Below are positions 25,053 through 41,119 of a stretch of DNA of 64,000 nt, one piece after another. The position numbers and the translations under genes were made by a program. The stretch comes from Halorussus caseinilyticus (GTDB lineage Archaea > Halobacteriota > Halobacteria > Halobacteriales > Haladaptataceae): assembly GCF_029338395.1 (NCBI RefSeq), contig NZ_CP119809.1:186001-250000 (forward strand). Direction: 5' to 3'. The notes beneath the pieces were generated by a model, which ran no database searches, was not told the origin of the DNA, and saw only the letters and a list, made by a program, of their open reading frames with translations. How positions within the stretch are numbered: the stretch's first letter is position 1; each line of letters begins with the position of its first letter.

Positions 25053-25427
25053 ATGACCGACGCGGACGAGCGACTACCAATCTGGTGCGCCGGGAAGGAA
25101 TGGTGTCCGATTACCGCGACTGCGACGCTCATCGGTAAGAAGTGGCATCCGGTGGTCATCCACCGACTGCTCGACGGCGGGCCGATGGGGTTCAACGAAC
25201 TCAAAGACGAGGTAGACGGCATCTCCAGTAAGGTCCTCTCGGACAGTCTGGAGGACCTCGAAGAGAAGCGACTGGTGAACCGGGAAATCGTGAGCGAGAA
25301 GCCGGTTCGGGTGAGTTACTCGCTGACCGAACGGGGCGAGTCGCTCGAAACGCTCATCTTCGAGATGCGCGATTGGGGTCAGGAACACCTCACGCCCGCA
25401 AACGACAAGGAAGGCGCTATCTCGTAG
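25053..25427 (+). CDS. HxlR-family winged-helix transcriptional regulator
   Basis: A 124-residue MarR-like winged helix regulator of the HxlR group. WCPITATATLIGKKWHPVVI, HRLLDGGPMGFNELKDEVDG, ISSKVLSDSLEDLEEKRLVN and VRVSYSLTERGESLETLIFE follow the family closely. Cys at CAGKEWCP near the N-terminus could sense redox or electrophiles, as in related HypR/YodB proteins; this is inference. The start at 25053 is preferred over 25008 because the upstream part overlaps the promoter. GGTAAC repeats upstream suggest self-control. Confidence 0.88.
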   Translation: MTDADERLPIWCAGKEWCPITATATLIGKKWHPVVIHRLLDGGPMGFNELKDEVDGISSKVLSDSLEDLEEKRLVNREIVSEKPVRVSYSLTERGESLETLIFEMRDWGQEHLTPANDKEGAIS

Positions 25428-25716: not shown

Positions 25717-26577
25717 ATGAACAGAAGAAGTGTACTTAAGAAGATTGGCGGTACTGCGACCGTACTGACCGTAGCGACCCAACCCGCCCTCGGCGGCGAG
25801 CCGGCCGTGGCACAGATGAAAGAACTCGACACCTCTGACCACTCCAACCTCGACGGCGTCACGGTGACGCTGTTCGAGAACGGTCACGCGAAGGTCGAGA
25901 TGTCGGGCACCCGTCCCGCCGACCCGAGCGAGGCGACGGGGTACAGCGTCCGACTCGGCGAACTCGGACAGAATCCGGGCGCACGTGCGCTCGACCGTGC
26001 AAACGCCCGCGTCGAGTCACTGCCGGCCGACGAGGTCCTCGCGCAGGACGGTGTCAGCACGGAGACGACCACGGGCAAGACCGGCTCCGGCTCGGACACG
26101 GCGTCGAGTTCGGACATCGGGACCATGGACCACGGAGGCAACGACGGCGAGGACAACTACGAGGGTGGTCTCTGGGTTCGCTCCGAGGACTCCGCCGACT
26201 TCACGCTGGCCATCACCGAAGGCTGGATCGACTGGACCACCAGCGGCGGCGAAGCCGACTACGTCGACTGGCTGTGGCACGCCACCGCCTGCGCACCCGG
26301 ACTGGCGGACTGGAACATCGACGACGCTGGCCACAGCTACACCGACTGGAGCGGCGACGACGTTGAGGTCAAGTTCTACGGCGATTACTACGACTACGCC
26401 TCGGGCGACGACAGCAAGCGAACTGACTCTTACCACCGGCTGTACGCGTACGGGAACCCCGACGGGTCGATGGACTGGGACACCACTCACTGGTACACCG
26501 GTGAGGACGCCAGCGGATACCGCTTCGACGCCGGGTACTTCTCGGGGTACGACCAGCACGCTGCCGGTCACTGCTAG
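25717..26577 (+). CDS. Tat-exported protein of unknown function, paralogue A
   Basis: A 286-residue secreted protein. MNRRSVLKKIGGTATVLTVA is a Tat signal. The mature part has a beta-rich N-terminal region (VTVTLFENGHAKVEMSGTRP), a Ser/Thr/Gly/Asp linker (about 110-140) and a Trp/Tyr/Asp-rich C-terminal domain (LWVRSEDSADFTLAITEGWI, DWTTSGGEADYVDWLWHATA) ending in Cys. The acidic aromatic domain may bind carbohydrate or calcium, but no known family is recognised. A paralogue follows 149 nt downstream with its own promoter. Confidence 0.75.
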   Translation: MNRRSVLKKIGGTATVLTVATQPALGGEPAVAQMKELDTSDHSNLDGVTVTLFENGHAKVEMSGTRPADPSEATGYSVRLGELGQNPGARALDRANARVESLPADEVLAQDGVSTETTTGKTGSGSDTASSSDIGTMDHGGNDGEDNYEGGLWVRSEDSADFTLAITEGWIDWTTSGGEADYVDWLWHATACAPGLADWNIDDAGHSYTDWSGDDVEVKFYGDYYDYASGDDSKRTDSYHRLYAYGNPDGSMDWDTTHWYTGEDASGYRFDAGYFSGYDQHAAGHC

Positions 26578-26726: not shown

Positions 26727-27599
26727 TTGAAAAGACGAAACTTACTCAAGAAACTCGGTGGTAGCGCGACAGCAGTGACTCTGGCGACCCAGTCGGTACT
26801 CGGCGACGAACCCGAGGTGGCACGGACGATAGACTTGGACACGTCCAGTAATCCGCACCTCGACAGCGTCACGGTGACCCTCTACGCGGACGGTCGGAAG
26901 AACGTCCGGATGTCGGGAACCGCGCCGGCGGAGGCGACCGAAATCAGCGGATACAGCGTCCGACTGCTCGGCCTCTCGAACGCTCAGGGTGAGTACACGC
27001 CCTCGCAGGCGAGCGCCCGAGTCCAGGCGGTCCCGGCCAGCGAGGTCATCTCGTCGAACGACTCCGGCGGTACGGTGAACGGTGAGAACTCCGGGTCGGG
27101 CTCGGACGGCACGTCCAGCGACTCGGACTTCGGCACTGCGAGTCACGGCGGTAATGACGGTCAGAGCGACTACGAAGGTGGTATCTGGGTCCGCTCGGAG
27201 GACTCGGTGGACCTCGACCTCGCCTACACCGAGGGCTGGATCGACTGGACCACCAGCGGCGGTGAAGTCGACTACGTCGACTGGAAGTGGCACGCCGTTC
27301 CGTGTGACACCGGCTGTTCGACGTGGTACATCGAGGATGCCGGCCACAACTACTCGGACTTCGCGGGCGACACCGTCGAAGTAAAGTTCCACGGCGACTT
27401 CTACAATTACGACTTCCCGAGCGACGGCGGGCGGACGGAGGCTCATCACCGACTCTGGACCACGGGTAACCCCGACGGCTCGATGGACTGGACGACCGAC
27501 CACTGGCACAGCGGCGAGCACGCGTGGTCGCTACGCACCGACGCGGGCTGGTTCGACAAGTACGACGAGCACGCGAACCACTGTGCGCAGGGCTGCTGA
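26727..27599 (+). CDS. Tat-exported protein of unknown function, paralogue B
   Basis: A 290-residue paralogue of the preceding gene with the same order: Tat signal MKRRNLLKKLGGSATAVTLA, a beta-rich part (VTVTLYADGRKNVRMSGTAP), a Ser/Gly linker and the C-terminal domain with IWVRSEDSVDLDLAYTEGWI and DWTTSGGEVDYVDWKWHA. Extra Cys residues (CDTGCSTW and the final QGC) suggest disulfides. The start is TTG at 26727, supported by gaggtga at 26713-26719, a rare clear Shine-Dalgarno in this window, and by the signal peptide beginning right there. Confidence 0.75.
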   Translation: MKRRNLLKKLGGSATAVTLATQSVLGDEPEVARTIDLDTSSNPHLDSVTVTLYADGRKNVRMSGTAPAEATEISGYSVRLLGLSNAQGEYTPSQASARVQAVPASEVISSNDSGGTVNGENSGSGSDGTSSDSDFGTASHGGNDGQSDYEGGIWVRSEDSVDLDLAYTEGWIDWTTSGGEVDYVDWKWHAVPCDTGCSTWYIEDAGHNYSDFAGDTVEVKFHGDFYNYDFPSDGGRTEAHHRLWTTGNPDGSMDWTTDHWHSGEHAWSLRTDAGWFDKYDEHANHCAQGC

Positions 27600-30619: not shown

Positions 30620-32035
30620 TCACAAGCCGATGGACTTCTCGTCGGCCTCCCCCGCTGGCGGCAGTGACCGAAGCGCGGGGTGAGCGAGGAAGTAGAGACC
30701 GAACAGCGGCAACGCCGCCCCGAAGAGGTACAGCACCGTCTCGGTGCCGACGTACCCGCCCATCGTCCCGCCGAACAGCGCACCGGTGGGTGCCATAATC
30801 GAAGTCGCGCCCTTCACGAGCGAACTGACCCGGCCCAAAAGCGACTCGTCTACGGCCGACTGGACCAACGTGAACACCATCACGTTGAACGTCCCCGGAA
30901 AGACGGCGGTGGCGAACAACAGGGCCGCAGTGGGCCACGTCCCCGGAACGGTGACGGCACCTGCCAGCGTCACCCCGGCTATCGGATAGCCGACGATGGT
31001 GACGCGACTGACCGAGCGCTCCTCGACGAGGAACGCCCCGGCGCTTCCGACGAACGTCCCGGCACCGATGGCCGCGAGCAACACGCCGTAGGCGTCGGGA
31101 CCGCCCAGCGACTCGGCGAACGCCGGAAGCACCGCGTCGGCCGCCATGAAGCCGAAGTTGATGACCATCGCGCTGAAGATTATCGGGACGAGCGCCGACC
31201 CTCGGACGTAGTCGATGCCGTCACGGAGTTCCGAGAGGTACGACTCGACGGCCCCGCCGTCGGTCTCTCGGGACGACTCGCTTGGCCCGCCGTCGCTCTC
31301 CTGCGGCGACCCGTCCGGTCCGTCGTCGTCCCGTTCGTCGCCGGTCTTCGTGCCGCCGTCGCTCGCGGCTTCTACGTCTCGCTCGCGGCCGTCAGACCTC
31401 TCGCGTTCGGTCTCGTCGCTCTCGCTCGTCTCGCCCGACTTCGGAACGCTGACGCCGAGAAACAGCACCGCGGCGACGGCAAACGTCACCGAGTCCACGA
31501 CGAACAGCGAAGTCGCGCTGACGAGCGCAATCAGCGCACCGCCGATGCCCTTGCTCACCGTGTCGATTGCCCGGACGGAAGTCGAGAACAGCGAGTTGGC
31601 CTTCGTCAGTTGCGCCTTCTCCACGACTCGGGGGAGCGCGGCGTTCTGGGCGGGGTAGACGAACCCGTTGACGAACGTCAGCAACGGCACGAGGACGACG
31701 AGCAACCATATCGAGAGATGGCCCAGCGCCGCCGCCGCGGGGACGACCAACACCCCGACGCCGTTGAGAACCTGCGTGGCGACGAGGACCCGCCGCAACT
31801 CCCACCGGTCTACGAGCGGACCGACCAAGAAGTTGAGCGCGGTCGGAATCTGGACGAGTGCGACCGCCAGTCCCGTGTAGAACGTGGAGTTCGTCAGTTC
31901 CCACACCAGCCACATCGTGGCGACGAAGTAGAGCGAGTCGCCGGTGTCGGTGATGACTCGCCCGCCGAAGAGTCTCAGGAAGGTGGCGTTTCGGAGCAAC
32001 TCGCGATAGCCACCGGCCCTTTCATACAGTCCCAT
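30620..32035 (-). CDS. MFS transporter (possible exporter of the lanthipeptide locus)
   Basis: A 471-residue major facilitator with about 12 helices, similar to the MFS_3/EntS-type drug or siderophore exporters. Motifs: FLRLFGGRVITDTGDSLYFV, ALNFLVGPLVDRWELRRVLV (motif A region) and GFVYPAQNAALPRVV. A long acidic loop (about 65 residues, full of Glu, Asp and Ser) sits between the two halves. The start at 32035 is chosen because the upstream frame runs antisense through the neighbouring gene. It diverges from the DUF6895-like gene beside the lanthipeptide enzymes and could export the product; that link is positional only. Confidence 0.85.
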   Translation of the reverse strand: MGLYERAGGYRELLRNATFLRLFGGRVITDTGDSLYFVATMWLVWELTNSTFYTGLAVALVQIPTALNFLVGPLVDRWELRRVLVATQVLNGVGVLVVPAAAALGHLSIWLLVVLVPLLTFVNGFVYPAQNAALPRVVEKAQLTKANSLFSTSVRAIDTVSKGIGGALIALVSATSLFVVDSVTFAVAAVLFLGVSVPKSGETSESDETERERSDGRERDVEAASDGGTKTGDERDDDGPDGSPQESDGGPSESSRETDGGAVESYLSELRDGIDYVRGSALVPIIFSAMVINFGFMAADAVLPAFAESLGGPDAYGVLLAAIGAGTFVGSAGAFLVEERSVSRVTIVGYPIAGVTLAGAVTVPGTWPTAALLFATAVFPGTFNVMVFTLVQSAVDESLLGRVSSLVKGATSIMAPTGALFGGTMGGYVGTETVLYLFGAALPLFGLYFLAHPALRSLPPAGEADEKSIGL

Positions 32036-32141
32036 GCGGAGGGAATTTTTAACCCTGTAACAAGTATTTTGCTCTCCAATCGGTTTTCCGCGCGGTTCGA
32101 GATGGACAAAGTATTTTTCCGGTAGCCTTCGTCCACGAATT

Positions 32142-33485
32142 ATGAGCGACGAGGCTTCGACGGACGACGTTCGGGAGGCGTTCGACCCGACGCCCCGAGT
32201 TCCGGACCGAGACGTACCCGCGATGGCCCGACGACTCGAAGCGACGACCACCTCGTGGGTAGAAGGCCACGCCGACCGCTTCGACCCCTTCCGGTGGGAG
32301 GACAAACGCGAGCAGAACCTGCGTCGGAAGGCGTTCGGCGAGGCGGGTCTCTACCTCCTGCACGCCCACGAACTCGGCGGCGGCGACGACCTGCAATCGC
32401 TTTCGAGCGTCGTCGCCGACCACGCCAACGACGAGCGATACTTCCGCCTCCTCCAGCGCCGTCCCACGATGGTCCGGAAGTTCGCGTACCCCGCGCTCTA
32501 CGCCGACCGGTCCGGAAACCTGCGCGACGACCGACTCTCGGGCCGCCTCACCGAACTCCTGAACGACGAGGCGGTGTGGGCGAAACAGCGCACCTCCTTC
32601 GAGCGGTTCGACCTCTGGCACGTCGCCAAACTCTCGGGCGTCGAACCGCCCTTCTCGACCGACGGACTGCTCGCAGGGTCGCCCCTCGCCCACCGACCCG
32701 ACCCGTTCCGCGCGACGGCCAAGGACGTGAACGGACTCGTCCACGAACTCATGTTCTGGCGCAATCTCGGCATGGACGCCGCGGGCGCGTCGTTCCCGGA
32801 CGAACCCGCACCCGGCGGCGACCTGCGCGAAGTTCTCACCCTGCTTCTGTTCCGGTACGTGGCCGAACAGAACTACGACGTGGGCCTCGAAGTGGTCATG
32901 TCGGCCGTCCTGCAACGGACGGTCGCCCCCGACTTGGTGCGGACGTTCGTCGGCCACGCCCTGTCTCGCGCGGAAGAACTCGGCTACCTGCCCAAGAGCG
33001 AGTCGAGTCTCGACTCGGACCCCCGGTTCGAGCGCTTCTCGGCGTCGGCCTCCGAGTGGGCCACCCACTACCACGCCAATCTGGTCGCGGGGTTCGCAAG
33101 CCGGGTCCTCTGCGACCACTGGGACGAGTTCGTCGCCGAGTCCGCGCCCGCCGAGAATCACGACTACGACCACGAGGACCTCCTGAAGATGGGCCGGATG
33201 GTCGAAGCCCTGATGGACTACGACCTGCAGTCGGGCGCTCGCCGACTCCGTGACCTCGCCGGAACGTCCGTGGCCGCGGCGTATCCCGAGGCGTTCGACG
33301 CCGCCGTCCGGTTCCTCCGGAACCAGCGCCGCCCGGACGGGACGTTCGGCTACTGGACCGACGTGCGCTCGAAGTACGTCTCGCTGACCGGCGACGGCGA
33401 GCGCTTCGACGAGGAAATCGTCGAATCGACGACCGAGGCGTGTTCGGCGGCGCTGGCGGAAATCGACCAACTGGCGTCCGAGTAG
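32142..33485 (+). CDS. DUF6895-like alpha-helical protein beside the lanthipeptide enzymes
   Basis: A 447-residue soluble, helix-rich protein. The C-terminal part (FDAAVRFLRNQRRPDGTFGY) has the Q-x-x-PDGTFGxW motif of alpha/alpha-toroid repeats seen in terpene-cyclase-like and DUF6895 proteins. Earlier blocks include NLRRKAFGEAGLYLLHAHEL and DVNGLVHELMFWRNLGMDAA. I recall DUF6895 members near peptide-modification genes, but no enzyme activity is established. Its stop lies 6 nt from the stop of the convergent LanC gene. A TATA-like tatttttccgg lies about 30 nt upstream. Confidence 0.6.
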   Translation: MSDEASTDDVREAFDPTPRVPDRDVPAMARRLEATTTSWVEGHADRFDPFRWEDKREQNLRRKAFGEAGLYLLHAHELGGGDDLQSLSSVVADHANDERYFRLLQRRPTMVRKFAYPALYADRSGNLRDDRLSGRLTELLNDEAVWAKQRTSFERFDLWHVAKLSGVEPPFSTDGLLAGSPLAHRPDPFRATAKDVNGLVHELMFWRNLGMDAAGASFPDEPAPGGDLREVLTLLLFRYVAEQNYDVGLEVVMSAVLQRTVAPDLVRTFVGHALSRAEELGYLPKSESSLDSDPRFERFSASASEWATHYHANLVAGFASRVLCDHWDEFVAESAPAENHDYDHEDLLKMGRMVEALMDYDLQSGARRLRDLAGTSVAAAYPEAFDAAVRFLRNQRRPDGTFGYWTDVRSKYVSLTGDGERFDEEIVESTTEACSAALAEIDQLASE

Positions 33486-33491
33486 GCCCCC

Positions 33492-34682
33492 TCACTCGAA
33501 CCGCGTCACCGACGGCAACTCGTCGGGGCGGACCAACCGCAAGAGCGCGTAGCCGATTCCGGCGGTTCCGGCGAAGAAGGTGGGGTCGTACAGTCCGCGC
33601 GAGCGATGGGCTAACTCGTAGTGGCCCTGCGACTCCTTGCGCTCGATTGCTCGGTCGGCCAAGCGCCGCGCTTGCTCGGCGTACTCGCCGTCCCCCGTGT
33701 GGCGCGACAGGTCCACGAGGAGGTTGACTTGGGCGAAGGTGCCGTCGCAGACGGCGTCCGACCGACCCAACTCGGGGTCGAAGGCGTCGAGTCGGTCCAC
33801 GTCCCGCGCCACGGCGTCGGACTCGCAGTACTCCGCGCTCCCGAGTCGCGCGCTCCCGACGCCAGCGAGTCCGAACCGCCACCCGAGTTGGTAGTGTGGC
33901 AGGAAGACCCAGTTGCTCCGCCAGTTTCGCTCGCGGTCCGAGTAGAAGGCGTTCTCGAACGCAATCGCGTCGTCGGCCGCCCGCCGGAACTCGTCTCTGC
34001 CGGTGTGGTCGGAGAGGCGGTAGAGCGCGTAGGCGATTCCCGCCGCGCCGTGGCCCATCCCGGTCGAAAAGCTTCGGACGCCCTCGTCCCAACTCGTGTC
34101 CCACACGCGATACCCCCACTTGTCGTACCGGTCGTCCAACAGGTGTTCCCCGCACCGAACTGCGCGCTCCTTCGCAACCGACGCGCCCGACCGCTCGTAG
34201 AGTCCCAACAGTCCCGTCAGCGCGCCCGCCGCGCCGGTCAGCACGTCGTAGCGTTCGTCGCCGCGAATCGCCTCGGCGGTTATCTCGCGGGCGAACTCGA
34301 CCGCCAACTCCTCGTACCGGGTTTCCCCCGTCAGTTCGTGCATCACCGAGAGACCGTAGACGAGCGCGCCGGTCCCGGTGCCCGCTCCGAGACCGACGCC
34401 CTTGACCAGTTCCCCGGTCTCCTCCTCGAACAGGTAGCGAACCGCGTCGTAGGCCGACTCTCCGTAGGACTCGCCCGGAAAGCAACGGTGCATCGCGGCG
34501 AAGTACGTGGCCACCCCCAACTGTCCGGAGTACAGTCCCTTCTGGCCTCGCAGGGAAGGTTTCCCCTTTGAGGACCCGTAGCCGACCCACCCGGCGTCGC
34601 CGCCCGGCAGGTCGAACCGGGCGTCCGCCACGTCGTCGGCTATCGCTTCGGCCTCCTCGCGCAGTGTCTCGTTCGGTATCAT
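33492..34682 (-). CDS. LanC-type lanthionine cyclase (separate from LanM dehydratase)
   Basis: A 396-residue toroid protein corresponding to the cyclase half of a class II LanM. Family blocks: KGLYSGQLGVATYFAAM (49-65), ELVKGVGLGAGTGTGALVYG (91-110), GMGHGAAGIAYALYRL (208-223, with His211) and the C-terminal FAGTAGIGYALLRL (370-383). It should add Cys thiols to dehydrated Ser/Thr. Two of three canonical zinc ligands appear lost: GWRFGLAGVG (267-276) has Arg269 where GWCxGAPG is expected, and VCDG (311-314) replaces CHG. Its ATG overlaps the dehydratase stop as TGATG, so the two are translated together. Confidence 0.88.
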   Translation of the reverse strand: MIPNETLREEAEAIADDVADARFDLPGGDAGWVGYGSSKGKPSLRGQKGLYSGQLGVATYFAAMHRCFPGESYGESAYDAVRYLFEEETGELVKGVGLGAGTGTGALVYGLSVMHELTGETRYEELAVEFAREITAEAIRGDERYDVLTGAAGALTGLLGLYERSGASVAKERAVRCGEHLLDDRYDKWGYRVWDTSWDEGVRSFSTGMGHGAAGIAYALYRLSDHTGRDEFRRAADDAIAFENAFYSDRERNWRSNWVFLPHYQLGWRFGLAGVGSARLGSAEYCESDAVARDVDRLDAFDPELGRSDAVCDGTFAQVNLLVDLSRHTGDGEYAEQARRLADRAIERKESQGHYELAHRSRGLYDPTFFAGTAGIGYALLRLVRPDELPSVTRFE

Positions 34683-36586
34683 CACAATCTGTTTCCGGGT
34701 AGCTCTCGCTCGCTCTCGGGCACGTCGGAACCGCGGAGACACGACTCTATCAGTCCGGTCTGGAAGGTTCGGTCCTCGGCGGACAACCGGTCGATTCGAC
34801 GCTGGACGCGTTCGAGACCCGCCGCCGCCGACCGGCACACCGTCTCATCCTCGAAGGTAATCGCCTCCGCGTCGGCCGAGGTGTGGAACTTCGGCACGTC
34901 CCGCCGGAGCAACGCTTCGCGCTCCGCCGCGACGATTTCCGAGACCGACTCCGGCGTGGTCGTGGAGTACTCGGCCCACGTCTTCGAGAGGGTGTCGCGT
35001 ATCTCGTTCCCGAAGACGACGCCGTTTCGCAGGGGCGTGGGGTTCGTCAGCGTGTTCAGAAGCGACTCGTACTGGGCCGTGTCTTGGAGGACGCATCTGA
35101 GTCGTACCCCGTCGAACCGGTCGGTCACGTCGTCTTTCACCTCGTCCGGGGCGCTCGCAACCGCGTCGTAGGCCGCCTCGAATCCCTCGACTATCCGGTC
35201 TGCGAACAACTCCGGCGGCGCGGGGTCGCCCTCGTAGAGCGGGTAGTTCTCGTCGTCCTCGACTCCGGGTCGCCGGTACTCGAAGTCCATCGCGTCCGTG
35301 TTGACGTGCGTCCAGACGAGCGTCCGGGTCGTCGCTCGCTCGGCGTCGTTCACGCCGAGTCCGGACTTGTCGGTCTCGCTTCGCGCGTCGTGCAGTTGTA
35401 CCATCTGGGTCTTGAGGACGCTCGACTCGTGGACTTCCTTTCGCAACTTGTCGAACAACTCCGTCCGGGGCACCTCGTACAGCGACGGTGCCAGCACGGT
35501 TTCGGCGTCTACCAGCACCGCCGACTCGTCGCTGGCTAGCAGGTTCTCGCCGTGGCAGTCCGAGACGTTCAACAGGTACAGCACGAACGACAGCGCCCCC
35601 GTCTTCCGGTAGTACCGCTCGACATCCGACTTGCTCGTCAGGGTCGCCCGTTCGACGCTCTCCATCCACCCGTAGTCCCCGCGAGTTCGCAGGGCCGGAG
35701 TCGGGAGCGTCGGAAACGCGTCGAACCGGTCGGCCAACCAGTTCAAAAAGCCGTAAAACTCCCTCTCGGCGTCGAGTTCGCGGGGTTTGTAGAACACCTC
35801 GCCGCGCTCGAACTCGACGCGAAACACCGACCTCCCGCGCTCGTGTGGGTCACCGTTGGATTCGACGCGCGCCACGTCGCCGACGGTCCCCTCGCCGACC
35901 ATCCCGCAGATGTCGTCGTAGTCGGCGTGCAGTCGCTCGGCGAACTCCGCGACCGATTCGCGCCACTGGGTCGTGACGACCGAGAGCAGTCGGGCCACCA
36001 TCGCGTACTCCTCGAAGAACGACTCCATCCGACCGTCGTAGAACGCCCGGACGTAGCTCTCGTACCACTCTCTGGAGTCGGGGGACCGCCGCTCGTCCGC
36101 GATAACCTCCGGGTCTCGCTCGACGATGAACCTGATAAAATCGAGGTGAAGCGGCTGTGCGCAGAGGTCGGTCAACCGGTCGAGCAACTGGGCTTCGAGA
36201 CTCGCTATCGCGTCGTCGGATAGTCTCGCCGTTGGTGCCGAGTCGAGGACACTCTCGACGCAGTGGTCGGCAATCGGAGCGACGATTTCCCGAAAGGGAA
36301 CCTCGCGGCGCTCCCCGCCCGAGAGGGGTTCCCGAACCGACTTCAGGCGGTCGTAAACGTCGCCGAACGCTTCGACCCAGTCGGGCAACTTCTCGTTGGG
36401 CCACGTTTCGAGGTTCGCGTACTCGACGGCGTCGCTCCCGAAGTTCTCCCGGAGTTCCTCGGCGAGCGACTCGTCTACGTAGTCGAACGCTTCGAGCGTG
36501 GTTCCGTCTTCGGTCGGCGCGCGGTGGCCGTCGTCGATTCGCTCCTGAATCAGTTCCGCGGACGCCGCGAGGTTCCTGACATCCAT
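34682..36586 (-). CDS. LanM-type lanthipeptide dehydratase (DUF4135), stand-alone
   Basis: A 634-residue protein matching the dehydratase half of class II LanM enzymes, which phosphorylate Ser/Thr of a precursor peptide and eliminate phosphate. Kinase-like motifs are intact: GDPHERGR (245-252), YKPR (266-269), SDCHGENLLA (342-351) and VDAETVL (359-365). Further conserved blocks are WTHVNTDAMDF (425-435), then VRLRCVLQDTAQYESLLNTL and EREALLRRDVPKF. Typical LanMs are about 1000 residues with a fused cyclase; here the cyclase is the next gene. A TATA-like GTTTATC lies about 25 nt upstream. The precursor genes begin about 75 nt further upstream. Confidence 0.93.
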   Translation of the reverse strand: MDVRNLAASAELIQERIDDGHRAPTEDGTTLEAFDYVDESLAEELRENFGSDAVEYANLETWPNEKLPDWVEAFGDVYDRLKSVREPLSGGERREVPFREIVAPIADHCVESVLDSAPTARLSDDAIASLEAQLLDRLTDLCAQPLHLDFIRFIVERDPEVIADERRSPDSREWYESYVRAFYDGRMESFFEEYAMVARLLSVVTTQWRESVAEFAERLHADYDDICGMVGEGTVGDVARVESNGDPHERGRSVFRVEFERGEVFYKPRELDAEREFYGFLNWLADRFDAFPTLPTPALRTRGDYGWMESVERATLTSKSDVERYYRKTGALSFVLYLLNVSDCHGENLLASDESAVLVDAETVLAPSLYEVPRTELFDKLRKEVHESSVLKTQMVQLHDARSETDKSGLGVNDAERATTRTLVWTHVNTDAMDFEYRRPGVEDDENYPLYEGDPAPPELFADRIVEGFEAAYDAVASAPDEVKDDVTDRFDGVRLRCVLQDTAQYESLLNTLTNPTPLRNGVVFGNEIRDTLSKTWAEYSTTTPESVSEIVAAEREALLRRDVPKFHTSADAEAITFEDETVCRSAAAGLERVQRRIDRLSAEDRTFQTGLIESCLRGSDVPESERELPGNRL

Positions 36587-36662: not shown

Positions 36663-36779
36663 CTACGCGGTGATGGAACACCAGTTGTCGGCTAACTGCT
36701 GTTCGGGGGCGTCTTCGTCGCTGTGGTCCTCTTCGAATTGTTCGATGAGTTCGTCCGGACTGATGTTTTCAGCGGACAT
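36663..36779 (-). CDS. Lanthipeptide precursor-like peptide 1 (38 aa)
   Basis: Leader MSAENISPDELIEQFEEDHS, then DEDAPEQQLADN and the core end WCSITA. It shares the S-P-D-E-x-I-E-Q-(F/L)-E leader and the W-C-x-I-T-A end with two further genes upstream. The only Cys is C34; Thr37 lies three residues after it, and no Thr precedes it in the core. Its own TATA box (36803-36817) is about 30 nt before the ATG. It is the precursor nearest to the dehydratase gene, in the same direction. Acidic leader plus a Ser/Thr/Cys end is what LanM enzymes use; no mature product is known. Confidence 0.8.
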   Translation of the reverse strand: MSAENISPDELIEQFEEDHSDEDAPEQQLADNWCSITA

Positions 36780-36802
36780 GTGACACACTAAAACAATATG
36801 CT

Positions 36803-36817
36803 CATTAAAACTTTTGG
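36803..36817 (-). promoter_or_regulatory. TATA box of precursor gene 1
   Basis: On the minus strand, ccaaaagttttaatg lies about 24-38 nt before ATG 36779. It resembles the elements before precursors 2 and 3 (AAAG-T/C-TT-T/G-A). Confidence 0.65.
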
Positions 36818-36885
36818 CTGATGTGGAGCATCTTGGTTCTCCGGTTCGTCGGCGGTGCCGGAACCGAAGAATCGACAGCTAACCG

Positions 36886-37014
36886 CTACTCTTTGGACGG
36901 CTCTTGGGCGGTGATGGCGCACCACGCGTCGTGGGTCGGCGGGTTGTCGTCCTCGCCGTGGCCTTCTTCGAGCTGTTCGATGAATTCATCCGGACTGACA
37001 TCTTCTGCGAATAT
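36886..37014 (-). CDS. Lanthipeptide precursor-like peptide 2 (42 codons, ATA in place of ATG)
   Basis: In frame from 37014 the codons read ATA-TTC-GCA-GAA, then DVSPDEFIEQLEEGHGEDDN, PPTHDAWCAITA and QEPSKE. This aligns over its length with precursors 1 and 3, but the codon matching their ATG is ATA, preceded by TTT and an in-frame TGA. No ATG, GTG or TTG is available before the leader motif. The TATA box at 37042-37055 keeps the usual distance. Either the gene has lost its start codon recently, or ATA is used on a leaderless mRNA. The core keeps THDAWC and WCAIT. Confidence 0.6.
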   Translation of the reverse strand: MFAEDVSPDEFIEQLEEGHGEDDNPPTHDAWCAITAQEPSKE

Positions 37015-37041
37015 AAATCAGAATACTAACTGCCCTGTCCA

Positions 37042-37055
37042 CATTAAAGCTTTCC
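37042..37055 (-). promoter_or_regulatory. TATA box of precursor gene 2
   Basis: Minus strand ggaaagctttaatg, 28-41 nt upstream of the ATA codon, with the same spacing as in the sister genes. Confidence 0.6.
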
Positions 37056-37080
37056 GAGAAAAATGCGCCGCTACTGCGCC

Positions 37081-37203
37081 TTATTCCTTGGTCGCGGTGA
37101 TGGTACACCAAGCGTCGTGGGTCGGCGGGCTGTCGTCTTCGCCGCTGTGGTCGTTTTCGAACTGTTCGATCATTTCGTCGGGGCTAATGTCTTCAGCAGA
37201 CAT
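37081..37203 (-). CDS. Lanthipeptide precursor-like peptide 3 (40 aa)
   Basis: Leader MSAEDISPDEMIEQFENDHS, then GEDDSPPTHDAWC and TITATKE. One Cys (C33) is preceded by Thr28 and followed by Thr34, Thr36 and Thr38. Leader residues 1-16 are nearly identical to precursor 1, while the core matches precursor 2 (PPTHDAWC), so the three genes form a tandem family with recombined parts. Start ATG 37203 is supported by the TATA box at 37226-37244. An in-frame ATG at 37323 would add a non-homologous extension and is rejected. Confidence 0.82.
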   Translation of the reverse strand: MSAEDISPDEMIEQFENDHSGEDDSPPTHDAWCTITATKE

Positions 37204-37225: not shown

Positions 37226-37244
37226 TGCTTTATCAAACTTTTCC
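37226..37244 (-). promoter_or_regulatory. TATA box of precursor gene 3
   Basis: Minus strand ggaaaagtttgataaagca, about 23-41 nt before ATG 37203. Confidence 0.6.
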
Positions 37245-37383: not shown

Positions 37384-38640
37384 ATGGAAATCGGCTACGT
37401 AGACTACGGGTATCCGAGCTATCCGTTAAAAAAGTTGGACAACGGTTACGTAATCGCCGACGTTTCTATGGACGAAGTTCACCGGAACCATCAGAAACAG
37501 GTGGAAAATCAAGTGGAGGTCGCCGTTACCGCCGACGAACTCGGGTACGACTACGCTCTCCATCCGGAACACCACTTCCTGATGCAGAACGGGTCTGCCA
37601 ACAATCCCCTGTTCACGCAGTCCGCGGTCGCTTCCCGGACCGAGGACATCCGCTTGCTCCAGACCGCCATCATCCTCCCGTGGAACGAACCGATTCGCAT
37701 CGCGGAACAGGCCGCGATGCTCGACATCCTCAGCGACGGCCGCGTTGACATCGGCATCGGCATCGGGACGAGAACGCTGGAGAACGAACCGCTCGGACAG
37801 TACTGGGGCGCGTCGTCGCAAAACCGGGCGGAGGCGTGGGAGTCGTTCGAGGAGAAGTACGAGATACTGGTTCAGGCGTGGACCGAGAACTTCGTGGACC
37901 ACCACGGCACCTTCCACGACGTTCCCCCGAAACACACCATCTGGGAGAACAAACACGACTACTACTACCTGAAACACACCGAGGACAGTCCCGCGCCGAC
38001 GGAATTCATGTCCGCGGAAGGCGACGAGGTTACGCTGAACTCTCTGCCTATCTTCCCCCAACCGAAACAGGACCCGCACCCGATGATGTGGCGTCCCACC
38101 ATGTCCGAGGGGTCGGTGAAGTGGGCGGCAGAGCGCGGCATCAACGGGGCCGTCCTCCCCGGCACGATTTCGCAGGCGAAGAACCTGATAGACACCTACT
38201 ACGAAGTCGCGGAGGAAGCGGACTGGCCCGACCACCGACCCGAACACGACGGCGAACCGTTCAAGTTCGGTTGGGACGCCGACCGACGCCGCGGCGTCGC
38301 CTGTTGCGTGACGGTGTTCAACACCGATGTCGCAGACGACGAGACGCTCGAACGCTGGCGACTCGGCCAAGAGTTCGTCCAGAGTAACAACATCGGCGCG
38401 AAACCCGACGTTAGCGGGGCCGCAATCGACGCGACGCCGCAAATTGAGTCCGACGAGACGCTCCCGATGGTGACGGACACCGAGGGAATCATCGAGAGAA
38501 TCACCGAACTTAAAGAGGCCATCGGCTACGAGGACTTCATCCTGTTCGTGAAGGCGAGCAACCCCGGCCTGTCCCGTGAGGAGACCGAGGCACAACTCCG
38601 AGCGTTCTCCGAGGAAGTCGCGCCGCACTTCGAGGAGTAA
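37384..38640 (+). CDS. LLM-class flavin-dependent oxidoreductase (luciferase-like)
   Basis: A 418-residue TIM-barrel flavin enzyme of the bacterial-luciferase-like superfamily. LGYDYALHPEHHFLMQNGSA contains the E-H-H-F motif (62-65) typical of LuxA-type monooxygenases. RVDIGIGIGTRTLENEPLG is the usual glycine-rich flavin phosphate segment, and MWRPTMSEGSVKWAAERGIN is a late conserved block. It diverges from precursor gene 3 across an AT-rich 180-nt region, which places it in the lanthipeptide locus. It could oxidise the peptide. Some members of this superfamily are F420-dependent reductases that convert dehydroalanine to D-alanine in lanthipeptides (LxmJ in lexapeptide). Confidence 0.85.
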   Translation: MEIGYVDYGYPSYPLKKLDNGYVIADVSMDEVHRNHQKQVENQVEVAVTADELGYDYALHPEHHFLMQNGSANNPLFTQSAVASRTEDIRLLQTAIILPWNEPIRIAEQAAMLDILSDGRVDIGIGIGTRTLENEPLGQYWGASSQNRAEAWESFEEKYEILVQAWTENFVDHHGTFHDVPPKHTIWENKHDYYYLKHTEDSPAPTEFMSAEGDEVTLNSLPIFPQPKQDPHPMMWRPTMSEGSVKWAAERGINGAVLPGTISQAKNLIDTYYEVAEEADWPDHRPEHDGEPFKFGWDADRRRGVACCVTVFNTDVADDETLERWRLGQEFVQSNNIGAKPDVSGAAIDATPQIESDETLPMVTDTEGIIERITELKEAIGYEDFILFVKASNPGLSREETEAQLRAFSEEVAPHFEE

Positions 38641-38671
38641 CCAGCGGTTCCGACTCCGTTTCAACTCTCTC

Positions 38672-39391
38672 ATGTTGAGTCCCGTCGCCACCGTCGCCTC
38701 CGAAGACGCCTCGGTCGAAGTCGCCGTCGAATCGAAGACGCTGACCGTCGGCGGGACCGACGAGGTCGAAATCGGCGTCAGCGACACGTCCGGCGAGTTC
38801 CGCGTCGAGTCGCTGGACCTCGAAATCGGCACGTACTGCCGCACCTCCGGCGGGTACGAGCGCGTTCCCGTCGAACGCTTCGCGTTGGCCGACGGGCTTT
38901 CGGCCGATTCCGGATTCACCACCACTCGCGTCGAATCGGTCTCGCTCCCCCACACCGCGCCGACCTCCATCGGGTCGGTCGATGCGTGGGCGCGGACGAC
39001 GATAGCGACCGCCGACTCCACTGAGACCCGAGAGACCTACGTCAACCTCCACCCGAGTCCGACGTTTCTGGCGGTCTTCGACGCCGTAATCGACGCGGGA
39101 TTCGCGTTCCGGGACATCGAGTGCTATCGGCGTCCGGACACCGACCGGCGTCGGTTCGACCAAGCGTTGGCGTTTGTCCCGCGGTCCGGCCCCTACGAGC
39201 GAGCGATGGACGAACTCCTGCTGGTCGTCCACGCGGAACCCGACACGTTAGAGGTGTATGCGGCCGCCGACGCCACCTACGACGAACTCCGGCCGGTCGG
39301 CGAGACGACGCCGACCGTCTTACCGGCCGACGCGGACGAAAAGCGGTGCGCCGCCGAACTCGACTCGCTCCTCGGCGAGCGATTCGGATGA
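38672..39391 (+). CDS. Spo0M-like (arrestin-fold) protein
   Basis: A 239-residue soluble protein. The N-terminal half (VEVAVESKTLTVGGTDEVEI, VESLDLEIGTYCRT) and the later VNLHPSPTFLAVFDAVIDAG, FAFRDIECYRRPDTDRRRFD and YERAMDELLLVVHAEPDTLE fit the SpoOM/Spo0M family, which has an arrestin-like beta-sandwich. In Bacillus Spo0M affects sporulation; its archaeal role is unknown. It lies 31 nt after the LLM gene in the same direction, so co-transcription is likely, but a role in peptide modification is not obvious. Confidence 0.7.
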   Translation: MLSPVATVASEDASVEVAVESKTLTVGGTDEVEIGVSDTSGEFRVESLDLEIGTYCRTSGGYERVPVERFALADGLSADSGFTTTRVESVSLPHTAPTSIGSVDAWARTTIATADSTETRETYVNLHPSPTFLAVFDAVIDAGFAFRDIECYRRPDTDRRRFDQALAFVPRSGPYERAMDELLLVVHAEPDTLEVYAAADATYDELRPVGETTPTVLPADADEKRCAAELDSLLGERFG

Positions 39392-39469: not shown

Positions 39470-40954
39470 CTACCCGTAGAACTCGTCGTACGACAGGTAC
39501 TCCTCGACCGATTTCTGTATCTCCTCGTAGGATTCGTCTATCGCGCTCGCGATTTCGGGTCGCACGTCGAGGTCGAGGTTTTGATAGAACTCCGACTCGA
39601 CGCCGAACCCTCGCAACACCCGGAAGTACGCCCAGTGGGGGAAGCGGAACGGTCCGAGCGGAACTTCGAGACCCTTGTCCAATTCCTGATGGAGGTGGAA
39701 GCCGTTCTGCTGGTAGTGGGTGTACTGGGGCACCGTCTTCTCGCTGTTGACCGACTGCACGTCCTCCCAGAACTCGGTGCCACCGGGCGCGTGCTTGTAG
39801 TGGATGCTGATGTACTCGTACACGTCCCGCCACGCGCGCGAGGTGAAGGTGTTGTAGAGGCTACGCACGCCCTGATTGTTGAGTTGGTAGCCTTTCTCGA
39901 CCAACTCGGCGAACTTTTTGGCGAACAGCGCGCTCTGGGTCAGCGCGGTCGATTGCAGGGGTTCGATGAATCCCAGCGCGTTCCCGACGGCCACGCAGTT
40001 GCCCACCCACGCCTTCTCGTAGTATCCCGACTCGAACTCGTACTCTTGGATGTCGGCTTCCGAGATGTCCTCCTTGCGGGTCTCCATCATCTCGGCCTTG
40101 GCTTCCTCGGCCGACATGTGCGACGACGAGTAGACGTACCCGAGGTCCCGGCAGTCGTAGGTGTCGATTTGCCAGAACCACCCCGCCTCGCCCGACTCGA
40201 TGACCGTCGCGGGGACGACTTCCGACAGCGGAAGGTCGGTCTGGGCGACGACGGCGGCGTCGATGGGCAGGTCGAAGTGGTTGTACTCGTTGTCCAGATT
40301 CCGCATCAGGAGTCGCTTGAATCCCGTCGCGTCCACGTAGAGGTCGGCGTCGTACTCCGTGGCGTCGCTGGCGATGGTCGCTATCTCCTCGTCCTCGACG
40401 CGGACCTCCTCGATTCGGTCGTCTATCAACTCAATTTCCCGCTCCTCGCACAGGTCTTCGAGCAGGTCGTTGAACCGCTTGAGACTCAGGTGATAGGAGA
40501 TGTGGGGGTAGCGGTCGCCGTCCTTCGACTTGAAGGGGGTCTTGCCCTGCTCCACGAACTCCGTGTTCGGCGTCCGGTACTCGTGGTTCCGGTACCGGTA
40601 GTACATCTCTTCGAGTTGCTGGTCGGACTTCTCGGTCAGGGGAAAGAGGTCGTCGTCGAACGGCAGGTGGAACGAGTCGCGGCCACACCAGTCCTCGAAG
40701 TGTATCGACGCCTTCCAGACGGGTTTGGCTTCCTCGATGAACCGGTCCTCGTCGATGTCGAGTACGCCGTGGAGTATCGTCCGGAGGTGGTTGATGGTAC
40801 TCTTTCCGGTCTCCGGGGGGTCCTCGTCGAAGTCGTCGACGACCGTGACGCGGAACCCCGGATTTATCTCCTTCACGAGCAGTGCTGTGAGAAGACCGAC
40901 ATCCCCGCCACCGACGATAGCTACCTCGTCAACGTCGTAGCTCGTGGCTGTCAT
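39470..40954 (-). CDS. Flavin-dependent tryptophan halogenase homologue
   Basis: A 494-residue FAD-binding protein of the tryptophan-halogenase family, which uses FADH2, O2 and halide to halogenate aromatic rings. The Rossmann motif is VAIVGGGDVGLLTALLV (11-27). GKSTIN (50-55) sits where halogenases have GxGEAT. The catalytic Lys is likely K81 (PVWKASIHFEDW). The W-x-W-x-I-P fingerprint appears as WFWQID (259-264), with Asp for Pro. C-terminal blocks WVGNCVAVGNALGFIEPLQS and WRDVYEYISIHYK are clear. A flavin reductase partner is not adjacent. The conserved Trp next to Cys in the precursor cores is a plausible substrate. Its promoter is AT-rich (40960-41000). Confidence 0.87.
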   Translation of the reverse strand: MTATSYDVDEVAIVGGGDVGLLTALLVKEINPGFRVTVVDDFDEDPPETGKSTINHLRTILHGVLDIDEDRFIEEAKPVWKASIHFEDWCGRDSFHLPFDDDLFPLTEKSDQQLEEMYYRYRNHEYRTPNTEFVEQGKTPFKSKDGDRYPHISYHLSLKRFNDLLEDLCEEREIELIDDRIEEVRVEDEEIATIASDATEYDADLYVDATGFKRLLMRNLDNEYNHFDLPIDAAVVAQTDLPLSEVVPATVIESGEAGWFWQIDTYDCRDLGYVYSSSHMSAEEAKAEMMETRKEDISEADIQEYEFESGYYEKAWVGNCVAVGNALGFIEPLQSTALTQSALFAKKFAELVEKGYQLNNQGVRSLYNTFTSRAWRDVYEYISIHYKHAPGGTEFWEDVQSVNSEKTVPQYTHYQQNGFHLHQELDKGLEVPLGPFRFPHWAYFRVLRGFGVESEFYQNLDLDVRPEIASAIDESYEEIQKSVEEYLSYDEFYG

Positions 40955-41119
40955 TGTTGGTTCCCTATGCGCTATTAAAATAAATTTTCCGGCTTTTACA
41001 ACGATACATAGTCGGTCGGCCGAGCGATTCCGGCGACCGCTTCGGGCCGAGGTTCCTCCGAACGGAGTCCCGCGCGCGCCTTCGCAATCCACAAGGTGGC
41101 TTCGCGCCAACGGTTCTCC

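Follow-up and report, generated by a model that had tools for sequence, protein, structure and literature searches.

Three precursor-like genes adjoin a split class II-type lanthipeptide synthetase with an altered zinc site in Halorussus caseinilyticus

Three short, related reading frames, each with a single cysteine next to a tryptophan, lie together in the 64,000-nucleotide stretch of Halorussus caseinilyticus DNA analysed here (the window). The locus raises the question of whether these frames encode lanthipeptide precursors, which enzymes would act on them and whether a halogenase encoded nearby takes part. Our analyses indicate that the array is real and that the first-pass annotation, made from the letters alone, was right to read it as precursor genes. 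The link to the halogenase is unsupported, and a split class II synthetase that has lost zinc ligands had been missed. The array comprises the following features.

36663 to 36779 (stop included), minus strand: precursor P1, 38 aa, core DNWCSITA
36886 to 37014 (stop included), minus strand: precursor P2, 42 codons, ATA at the start position, core DAWCAITAQEPSKE
37081 to 37203 (stop included), minus strand: precursor P3, 40 aa, core DAWCTITATKE
36804 to 36809, minus strand: putative TATA-like box of P1, 30 bases before the start
37043 to 37048, minus strand: putative TATA-like box of P2, 34 bases before the start position
37232 to 37237, minus strand: putative TATA-like box of P3, 34 bases before the start

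Related ORFs of 38, 42 and 40 codons had been proposed between 36663 and 37203, and all three were recovered on the minus strand, each with the common SPDExIEQ(F/L)E leader and WCxITA core. Pairwise local alignment scores among them ranged from 105 to 149, whereas 2000 shuffles of each pair never scored above 55. Every precursor has exactly one Cys, which upholds the earlier limit of one thioether per peptide; Thr is found at Cys+3 in all three and at Cys-5 in two, again as described. Small-sample estimates of dN/dS were approximately 0.15 (P2-P3), 0.37 (P1-P3) and 0.30 (P1-P2), with dS between 0.67 and 1.0. The three TATA-like boxes share the consensus TTT(A/G)AT. The statement that two of the genes were too short or start-less for routine gene calling held for P2 only: it has an in-frame TGA two codons upstream of its ATA and no in-frame ATG, GTG or TTG, whereas P1 and P3 both have ATG.

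As class II systems require, each peptide combines an N-terminal leader with a C-terminal Cys plus Ser/Thr, and P1-P3 have the appearance of class II-type lanthipeptide precursors. The DNA pattern of the WCxITA core occurs at four places in the genome, namely the three precursors and one unrelated site within a longer ORF at window position 25101. A precursor profile matched four of 391 genomes of the class at E<=0.01, the host included, and the other three matches (E 3.8e-4 to 0.009) covered profile positions 10-33 only; among 28 genomes of the family, three had matches at E<=0.05, the two besides the host at 0.017 and 0.03. The close precursor family is limited to the host genome within the 391 class and 28 family genomes searched. 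Homologous short genes occurring commonly away from any LanM-type gene, named at the outset as evidence that would speak against the precursor reading, were not encountered, as no convincing homologue was found outside the host genome in these searches.

The LanM-type partner that the precursor reading presupposed is present next to the array, in two ORFs.

34682 to 36586, minus strand: stand-alone class II dehydratase (DUF4135), 634 aa, matching LanM profile positions 3-521
33492 to 34682, minus strand: stand-alone LanC-like cyclase, matching LanM profile positions 546-931, overlapping the dehydratase ORF by 1 bp, with the zinc ligands C-C-H read as R-C-D

The two proteins match consecutive stretches of one LanM profile. 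Pfam assigned DUF4135 alone to the first ORF (PF13575 at 1.2e-90, with TIGR03897 at 365 bits against a cut-off of 304) and LANC_like to the second, where GH127 also matched below its cut-off, and it found no Ser/Thr kinase or lyase domain of class III/IV type in either. The enzyme sequence is nearer class II LanM (3.2e-71) than LanKC (3.1e-16), and the whole host genome has a single DUF4135 match and a single LANC_like match. In alignment with CylM and LicM2, the dehydratase retains GDxH, YKP, DxHxEN, D-x-ET and R-x5-T, motifs that we take to be catalytic. Since they align with the CylM active site, dehydration by the window protein is likely. The usual definition of class II, a dehydratase and a cyclase in one polypeptide, does not describe these two ORFs.

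Dehydratase homologues were found at E<=1e-10 in 31 of the 391 class genomes, and eight split dehydratase/LanC pairs were found in five haloarchaeal genomes. Seven of these pairs (the window, L046 in genome G151, L047 and L048 in G124, and L050 to L052 in G346) consist of a stand-alone dehydratase of approximately 650-700 aa with a LanC directly adjoining. The eighth, L184 (G407), came from the 28 family genomes, belongs to the same genus as the window and likewise has its dehydratase and LanC in two ORFs. The junction was measured in seven pairs, with an overlap of 1-4 bp in six and a 6 bp gap at L047. A scan of genome contigs gave 71 loci; L055, L056 and L066, with clean stand-alone dehydratases, duplicate L046, L051 and L053 and were not recounted, while L072, L078, L121 and L125 (broken or short) and the G107 dehydratase (L054, in two frames) were excluded. 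In a tree of 54 dehydratase domains (9 stand-alone, 24 fused haloarchaeal and 21 bacterial, the last taken from the 71 loci), the seven split dehydratases formed one clade (100/98), with the window in a subclade supported at 100/99. L184 is absent from this tree and was placed only in trees of eight rows, where it joins the window subclade, which then comprises the window, L046, L047, L051 and L184. The stand-alone dehydratases L053 and L049 were rejected as members of the split clade, since the tree places both among fused LanMs, so that each lost its cyclase separately. The genomes that encode them, G308 and G183, gave no LANC_like match at all.

Precursor-like small ORFs adjoin seven of the eight split pairs (the window, L046, L047, L048, L050, L051 and L184, with two each at L046 and L184), and the leaders of the relatives are related to (V/I/L)-x-(Q/E)-(F/L/Y)-(E/D/N)-x-x-(H/Y). 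None was picked out at L052, where only short flanks were listed. A profile of ten precursor peptides, which included the window's three and one L049 peptide that sits beside a dehydratase without LanC, was run over 14,210 small ORFs. Its best matches outside the training peptides and their duplicates (L023 at 4e-4, L022 at 5.5e-4 and L057 at 0.019) all lie beside fused LanMs, which places the window leader with those of haloarchaeal LanA peptides. The next match, L010 (E 0.038), is not beside any LanM identified.

The cyclase sets the window apart from its split relatives. In alignment with LicM2, WCHG and LCHG have become WRFG and VCDG, so that two of the three zinc ligands expected of class II (C, C and H or C) are gone (R, C, D), whereas all seven other split LanCs have C, C, H. 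The ligands are C, C, C in 20 of 24 fused haloarchaeal LanMs, the exceptions being L029 (S,S,D), L030 (S,A,D), L020 (C,Y,A) and L057 (L,Y,A), and they are complete in 20 of 21 bacterial LanMs, with S,C,N in L090. The LanC fold is kept, as the predicted model (pLDDT 78) matched LicM2 with a Z score of 35.3 over 364 aligned residues (rmsd 2.9). The Asp at the zinc His position is the same His-to-Asp change as in ThurKC, and the position of ThurKC F770 is occupied by Cys. In both proteins the window lies on a long branch, 0.67 for LanC (sisters 0.26 and 0.33) and 1.09 for the dehydratase (sisters 0.46 and 0.39), and LanC is not accelerated beyond its partner. The GC3 of the LanC ORF, 0.864, is like that of its neighbours. 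With two zinc ligands lost, ring closure in the peptides may follow an unusual route or not take place at all.

The cores appear to have been altered too. Both MAFFT modes placed the window Trp on the first Cys and the window Ala on the second Cys of all six peptides from subclade relatives, and the window Cys, beside Trp, on a column without Cys; for cores this short the alignment is doubtful, and an earlier one with more distant peptides brought the Cys nearer by means of a gap. By alignment, then, Trp and Ala would stand where the relatives have their two core Cys, and a new Cys would have arisen beside the Trp. The window Cys aligns with a non-Cys position, so shared ancestry with the relatives would not explain a C-x-x-T ring. 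The idea that Cys loss simply follows zinc loss was considered and rejected: L020 and L057 lack ligands yet have two-Cys precursors, and the Cys-less peptides at L053 have a leader of the DUF6895 type, as at L139 and L141, not of the LanA type. For L167 and L168, whose fused LanMs are those of L029 and L030 with missing zinc ligands, a search of the upstream stretch on one strand found no precursors.

Further genes flank the array and the synthetase.

30620 to 32119, minus strand: MFS transporter, probable exporter
32142 to 33485, plus strand: DUF6895 protein, putative tailoring enzyme
37384 to 38640, plus strand: luciferase-like monooxygenase, doubtful as a cluster member
38576 to 39391, plus strand: Spo0M-family protein

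The DUF6895, Spo0M and precursor genes are kept in all five clusters of the window subclade. The four relatives in this subclade have ABC transporters in place of the window's MFS transporter (by Pfam at L046, otherwise read from the sequence). The luciferase-like gene was not found in the fetched stretches of the relatives' clusters. The DUF6895 gene of L184 is in two pieces (L184:8507-9834), from a frame break or a sequencing error.

DUF6895 (profile A3) was detected in 11 of the 391 genomes, two of which have fragments only. A DUF6895 protein is named a lasso-peptide epimerase in the title of a paper (ACS Catal 2026, cited in the reference list of PMC13352647). Foldseek returned no match to the DUF6895 fold at E<=0.001; the best VIA score was a Z of 16.2 to squalene-hopene cyclase (258 aligned, rmsd 3.7), close to those of other helical toroids, and no function was drawn from these matches.

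DUF6895 genes also occur without LanM. At L138 (8739-8891 and 9057-9170), L139 (10538-10802), L141 (8614-8754) and L143 (8631-8768) their neighbours are transporters of the ABC or MFS type and short peptides, in some cases in tandem, whose leader resembles M(T/P/A)(D/N)LTE or another LTE variant and whose C-terminus is hydrophobic (SVALISL or SWALISFD, for example). These may form a distinct family of epimerised haloarchaeal peptides. At L053 (13460-13908 and 8298-13148; G308, the same locus as Natrinema salsiterrestre L066), DUF6895, MFS and stand-alone LanM dehydratase genes adjoin four tandem Cys-less peptides that end in Trp (AWITW twice, AWISW and IITW). Elsewhere in the window, two similar adjacent proteins (25717-26577 and 26727-27599) have secretion-signal-like N-termini and no Pfam match.

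The precursors, the split, the loss of zinc ligands and the conserved cluster can be read directly from the sequence, and from these we propose, with moderate confidence, that the split synthetase acts on P1-P3 and that the product carries one C-x-x-T methyllanthionine (Cys to Thr at Cys+3), closed without canonical zinc. The stand-alone DUF4135 dehydratase would recruit the peptide through the leader motif IEQ(F/L)ExxH, phosphorylate the Thr at Cys+3 and carry out the elimination; the Ser/Thr at Cys+1 in P1 and P3 would perhaps be dehydrated too. The sole Cys would then add to the dehydrobutyrine, giving one four-residue ring beside the invariant Trp. With the canonical zinc site lost, closure in the LanC-fold partner would either need no metal, like that by class III cyclases, or proceed spontaneously on the enzyme. 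One residue may be epimerised by DUF6895, and the transporter would export the product. A single methyllanthionine is favoured because the Cys and the Thr at Cys+3 are invariant and the C-x-x-T ring has a precedent in archalan alpha. The CcaM precedent of dehydration without lanthionine, the non-Cys column on which the window Cys falls, the absence of a usual start in P2, the long window branch in both enzymes and the Cys at the position of F770, which is essential in ThurKC, are points against this proposal.

More tentatively, one member of a split class II lineage could have become zinc-independent with a rebuilt core, in which both ancestral ring Cys were lost, a new Cys was gained beside Trp and one reversed C-x-x-T ring is formed; we regard this as possible rather than probable. 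If true, a class II cyclase arrived independently at the Asp-for-His solution of class III and, together with the fused pairs L029/L030 and L020/L057, zinc loss in class II cyclases would have taken place at least three times in Haloarchaea.

A close rival to the ring, which we nevertheless consider unlikely, is an open dehydropeptide: the Thr would be dehydrated, the zinc-less LanC would serve only as a helper of dehydration, as in CcaM, leaving the Cys free or in a disulfide. Among the split members only the window has lost two of three zinc ligands, and its precursors are those in which, by alignment, both core Cys are replaced; in CcaM, dehydration needs the zinc-less cyclase domain and the product has no lanthionine. 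Stand-alone DUF4135 proteins exist in G308 and G183, which lack any LANC_like protein, and the four tandem peptides near the G308 dehydratase have no Cys. An open product leaves aside, however, that all three precursors retain the Cys together with its Thr at +3 and that the fused L020 and L057, with zinc ligands missing, still have two-Cys precursors. The genome encodes two YcaO proteins, the nearest approximately 200 kb from the precursors, and the setting therefore differs from that of CcaM.

Alternatively, the cluster could be a decaying relic with a start-less precursor, a broken zinc site and no product, which we judge distinctly improbable. Decay would account for the ATA of P2, the zinc-ligand loss in LanC and the long window branches, but the frames are intact in two precursors and both enzyme ORFs, the dehydratase motifs are retained, LanC is not specifically accelerated, GC3 is like that of the neighbours and precursor dN/dS is well below 1.

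The remaining alternative concerns one further gene.

39470 to 40990 (ATG near 40954), minus strand: flavin-dependent halogenase homologue of the haloarchaeal GWFWQID type, with cluster membership not supported

The Trp next to Cys had been taken to fit this nearby halogenase, a suggestion that found no backing in co-occurrence or synteny. Halogenase homologues occur in 20 and LanM-type dehydratases in 31 of the 391 genomes, with both in two, no more than chance predicts (Fisher p=0.67). No cluster gene lies within 1.5 kb of any of 13 halogenase loci examined, nor was a halogenase found in the fetched stretch of any split-LanM relative. The halogenase was rejected as a cluster enzyme on these grounds. 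In the haloarchaeal homologues L153 to L166, GWFWQID stands in place of WxWxIP in 14 of 14 read. A lanthipeptide with its Trp halogenated by this neighbour is thus very improbable, even though the gene lies approximately 2.3 kb from the precursors, retains the Lys in its VWKASIHFEDW stretch and has as best PDB match 5uao (named Tryptophane-5-halogenase, E 7.9e-40), which we take to be MibH of the lantibiotic NAI-107: LanM occurs in only two of the 20 halogenase genomes, the relatives' clusters lack the gene in the stretches fetched, and the WFWQID form is shared by all 14 family members read, 13 of them without a cluster gene within 1.5 kb.

In the available text of PMC10604976 the zinc ligands are termed strictly conserved in every cyclase domain outside class III, and that of PMC7268733 assigns both steps in classes II-IV to a single protein. 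If the locus works, it contradicts both statements, the first of which is already bent by LanMbC (PMC10676384, in the part available). No paper describing a split LanM, and no zinc-less class II cyclase besides LanMbC, was found in the literature searched, which had most subscription journals outside its coverage. The split relative of the same genus, L184, has all zinc ligands and two-Cys cores and is a natural comparison, one that makes testable both the need of LanC for zinc and its role as ring closer or dehydratase helper.

Haloarchaeal class II lanthipeptides comprise the archalans, medlans and larlans, according to the portions available of PMC10105419 and PMC12144867. Like the window, these systems have short precursors, a LanM-type dehydratase and a haloarchaeal host, and archalan alpha provides the C-x-x-T precedent with its Cys2-Thr5 methyllanthionine (PMC10105419). 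The systems in the accessible part of PMC10105419 mostly have a typical LanM with a C-like domain, whereas the window has two ORFs and a cyclase without two zinc ligands. The leader quoted there, Kx(Y/F)(D/E)xx(F/Y), agrees with IEQ(F/L)ExxH of the window at the aromatic (Leu in P2) and acidic positions but not at the K and the last aromatic.

ThurKC closes rings without zinc, with S726, F770 and D771 in place of the ligands, and changing F770 or D771 to Ala abolishes cyclisation while dehydration remains (PMC10604976, as far as available). It resembles the window LanC in having a LanC fold without the canonical ligands and an Asp at the His position; as a class III enzyme it differs in its kinase and lyase domains, none of which was found by Pfam in the window ORFs, and the window enzyme is closer to class II LanM. 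In the dehydrazole system, the DUF4135 enzyme CcaM, with its zinc-less cyclase domain, dehydrates and forms no lanthionine (PMC10676384, in the part available). LanMbC/CcaM thus shares with the window the pairing of a DUF4135 dehydratase with a zinc-less cyclase, but there the two are fused and the cyclase is of class III type, whereas the window has separate ORFs and a cluster without YcaO.

A halogenase conserved with the lanthipeptide genes, as in an NAI-107-type system, was not seen among the relatives in the stretches fetched. The lasso-peptide epimerase, known here by title, belongs to the same domain family as the window's DUF6895 protein and has a ribosomal peptide substrate; no lasso genes were noticed among the proteins scanned. 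Split LanB enzymes of class I (pinensin and others; PMC7268733, in the portion available) likewise spread a lanthipeptide enzyme over two polypeptides, but that split separates two LanB halves, whereas the one in the window separates a class II dehydratase from its cyclase.
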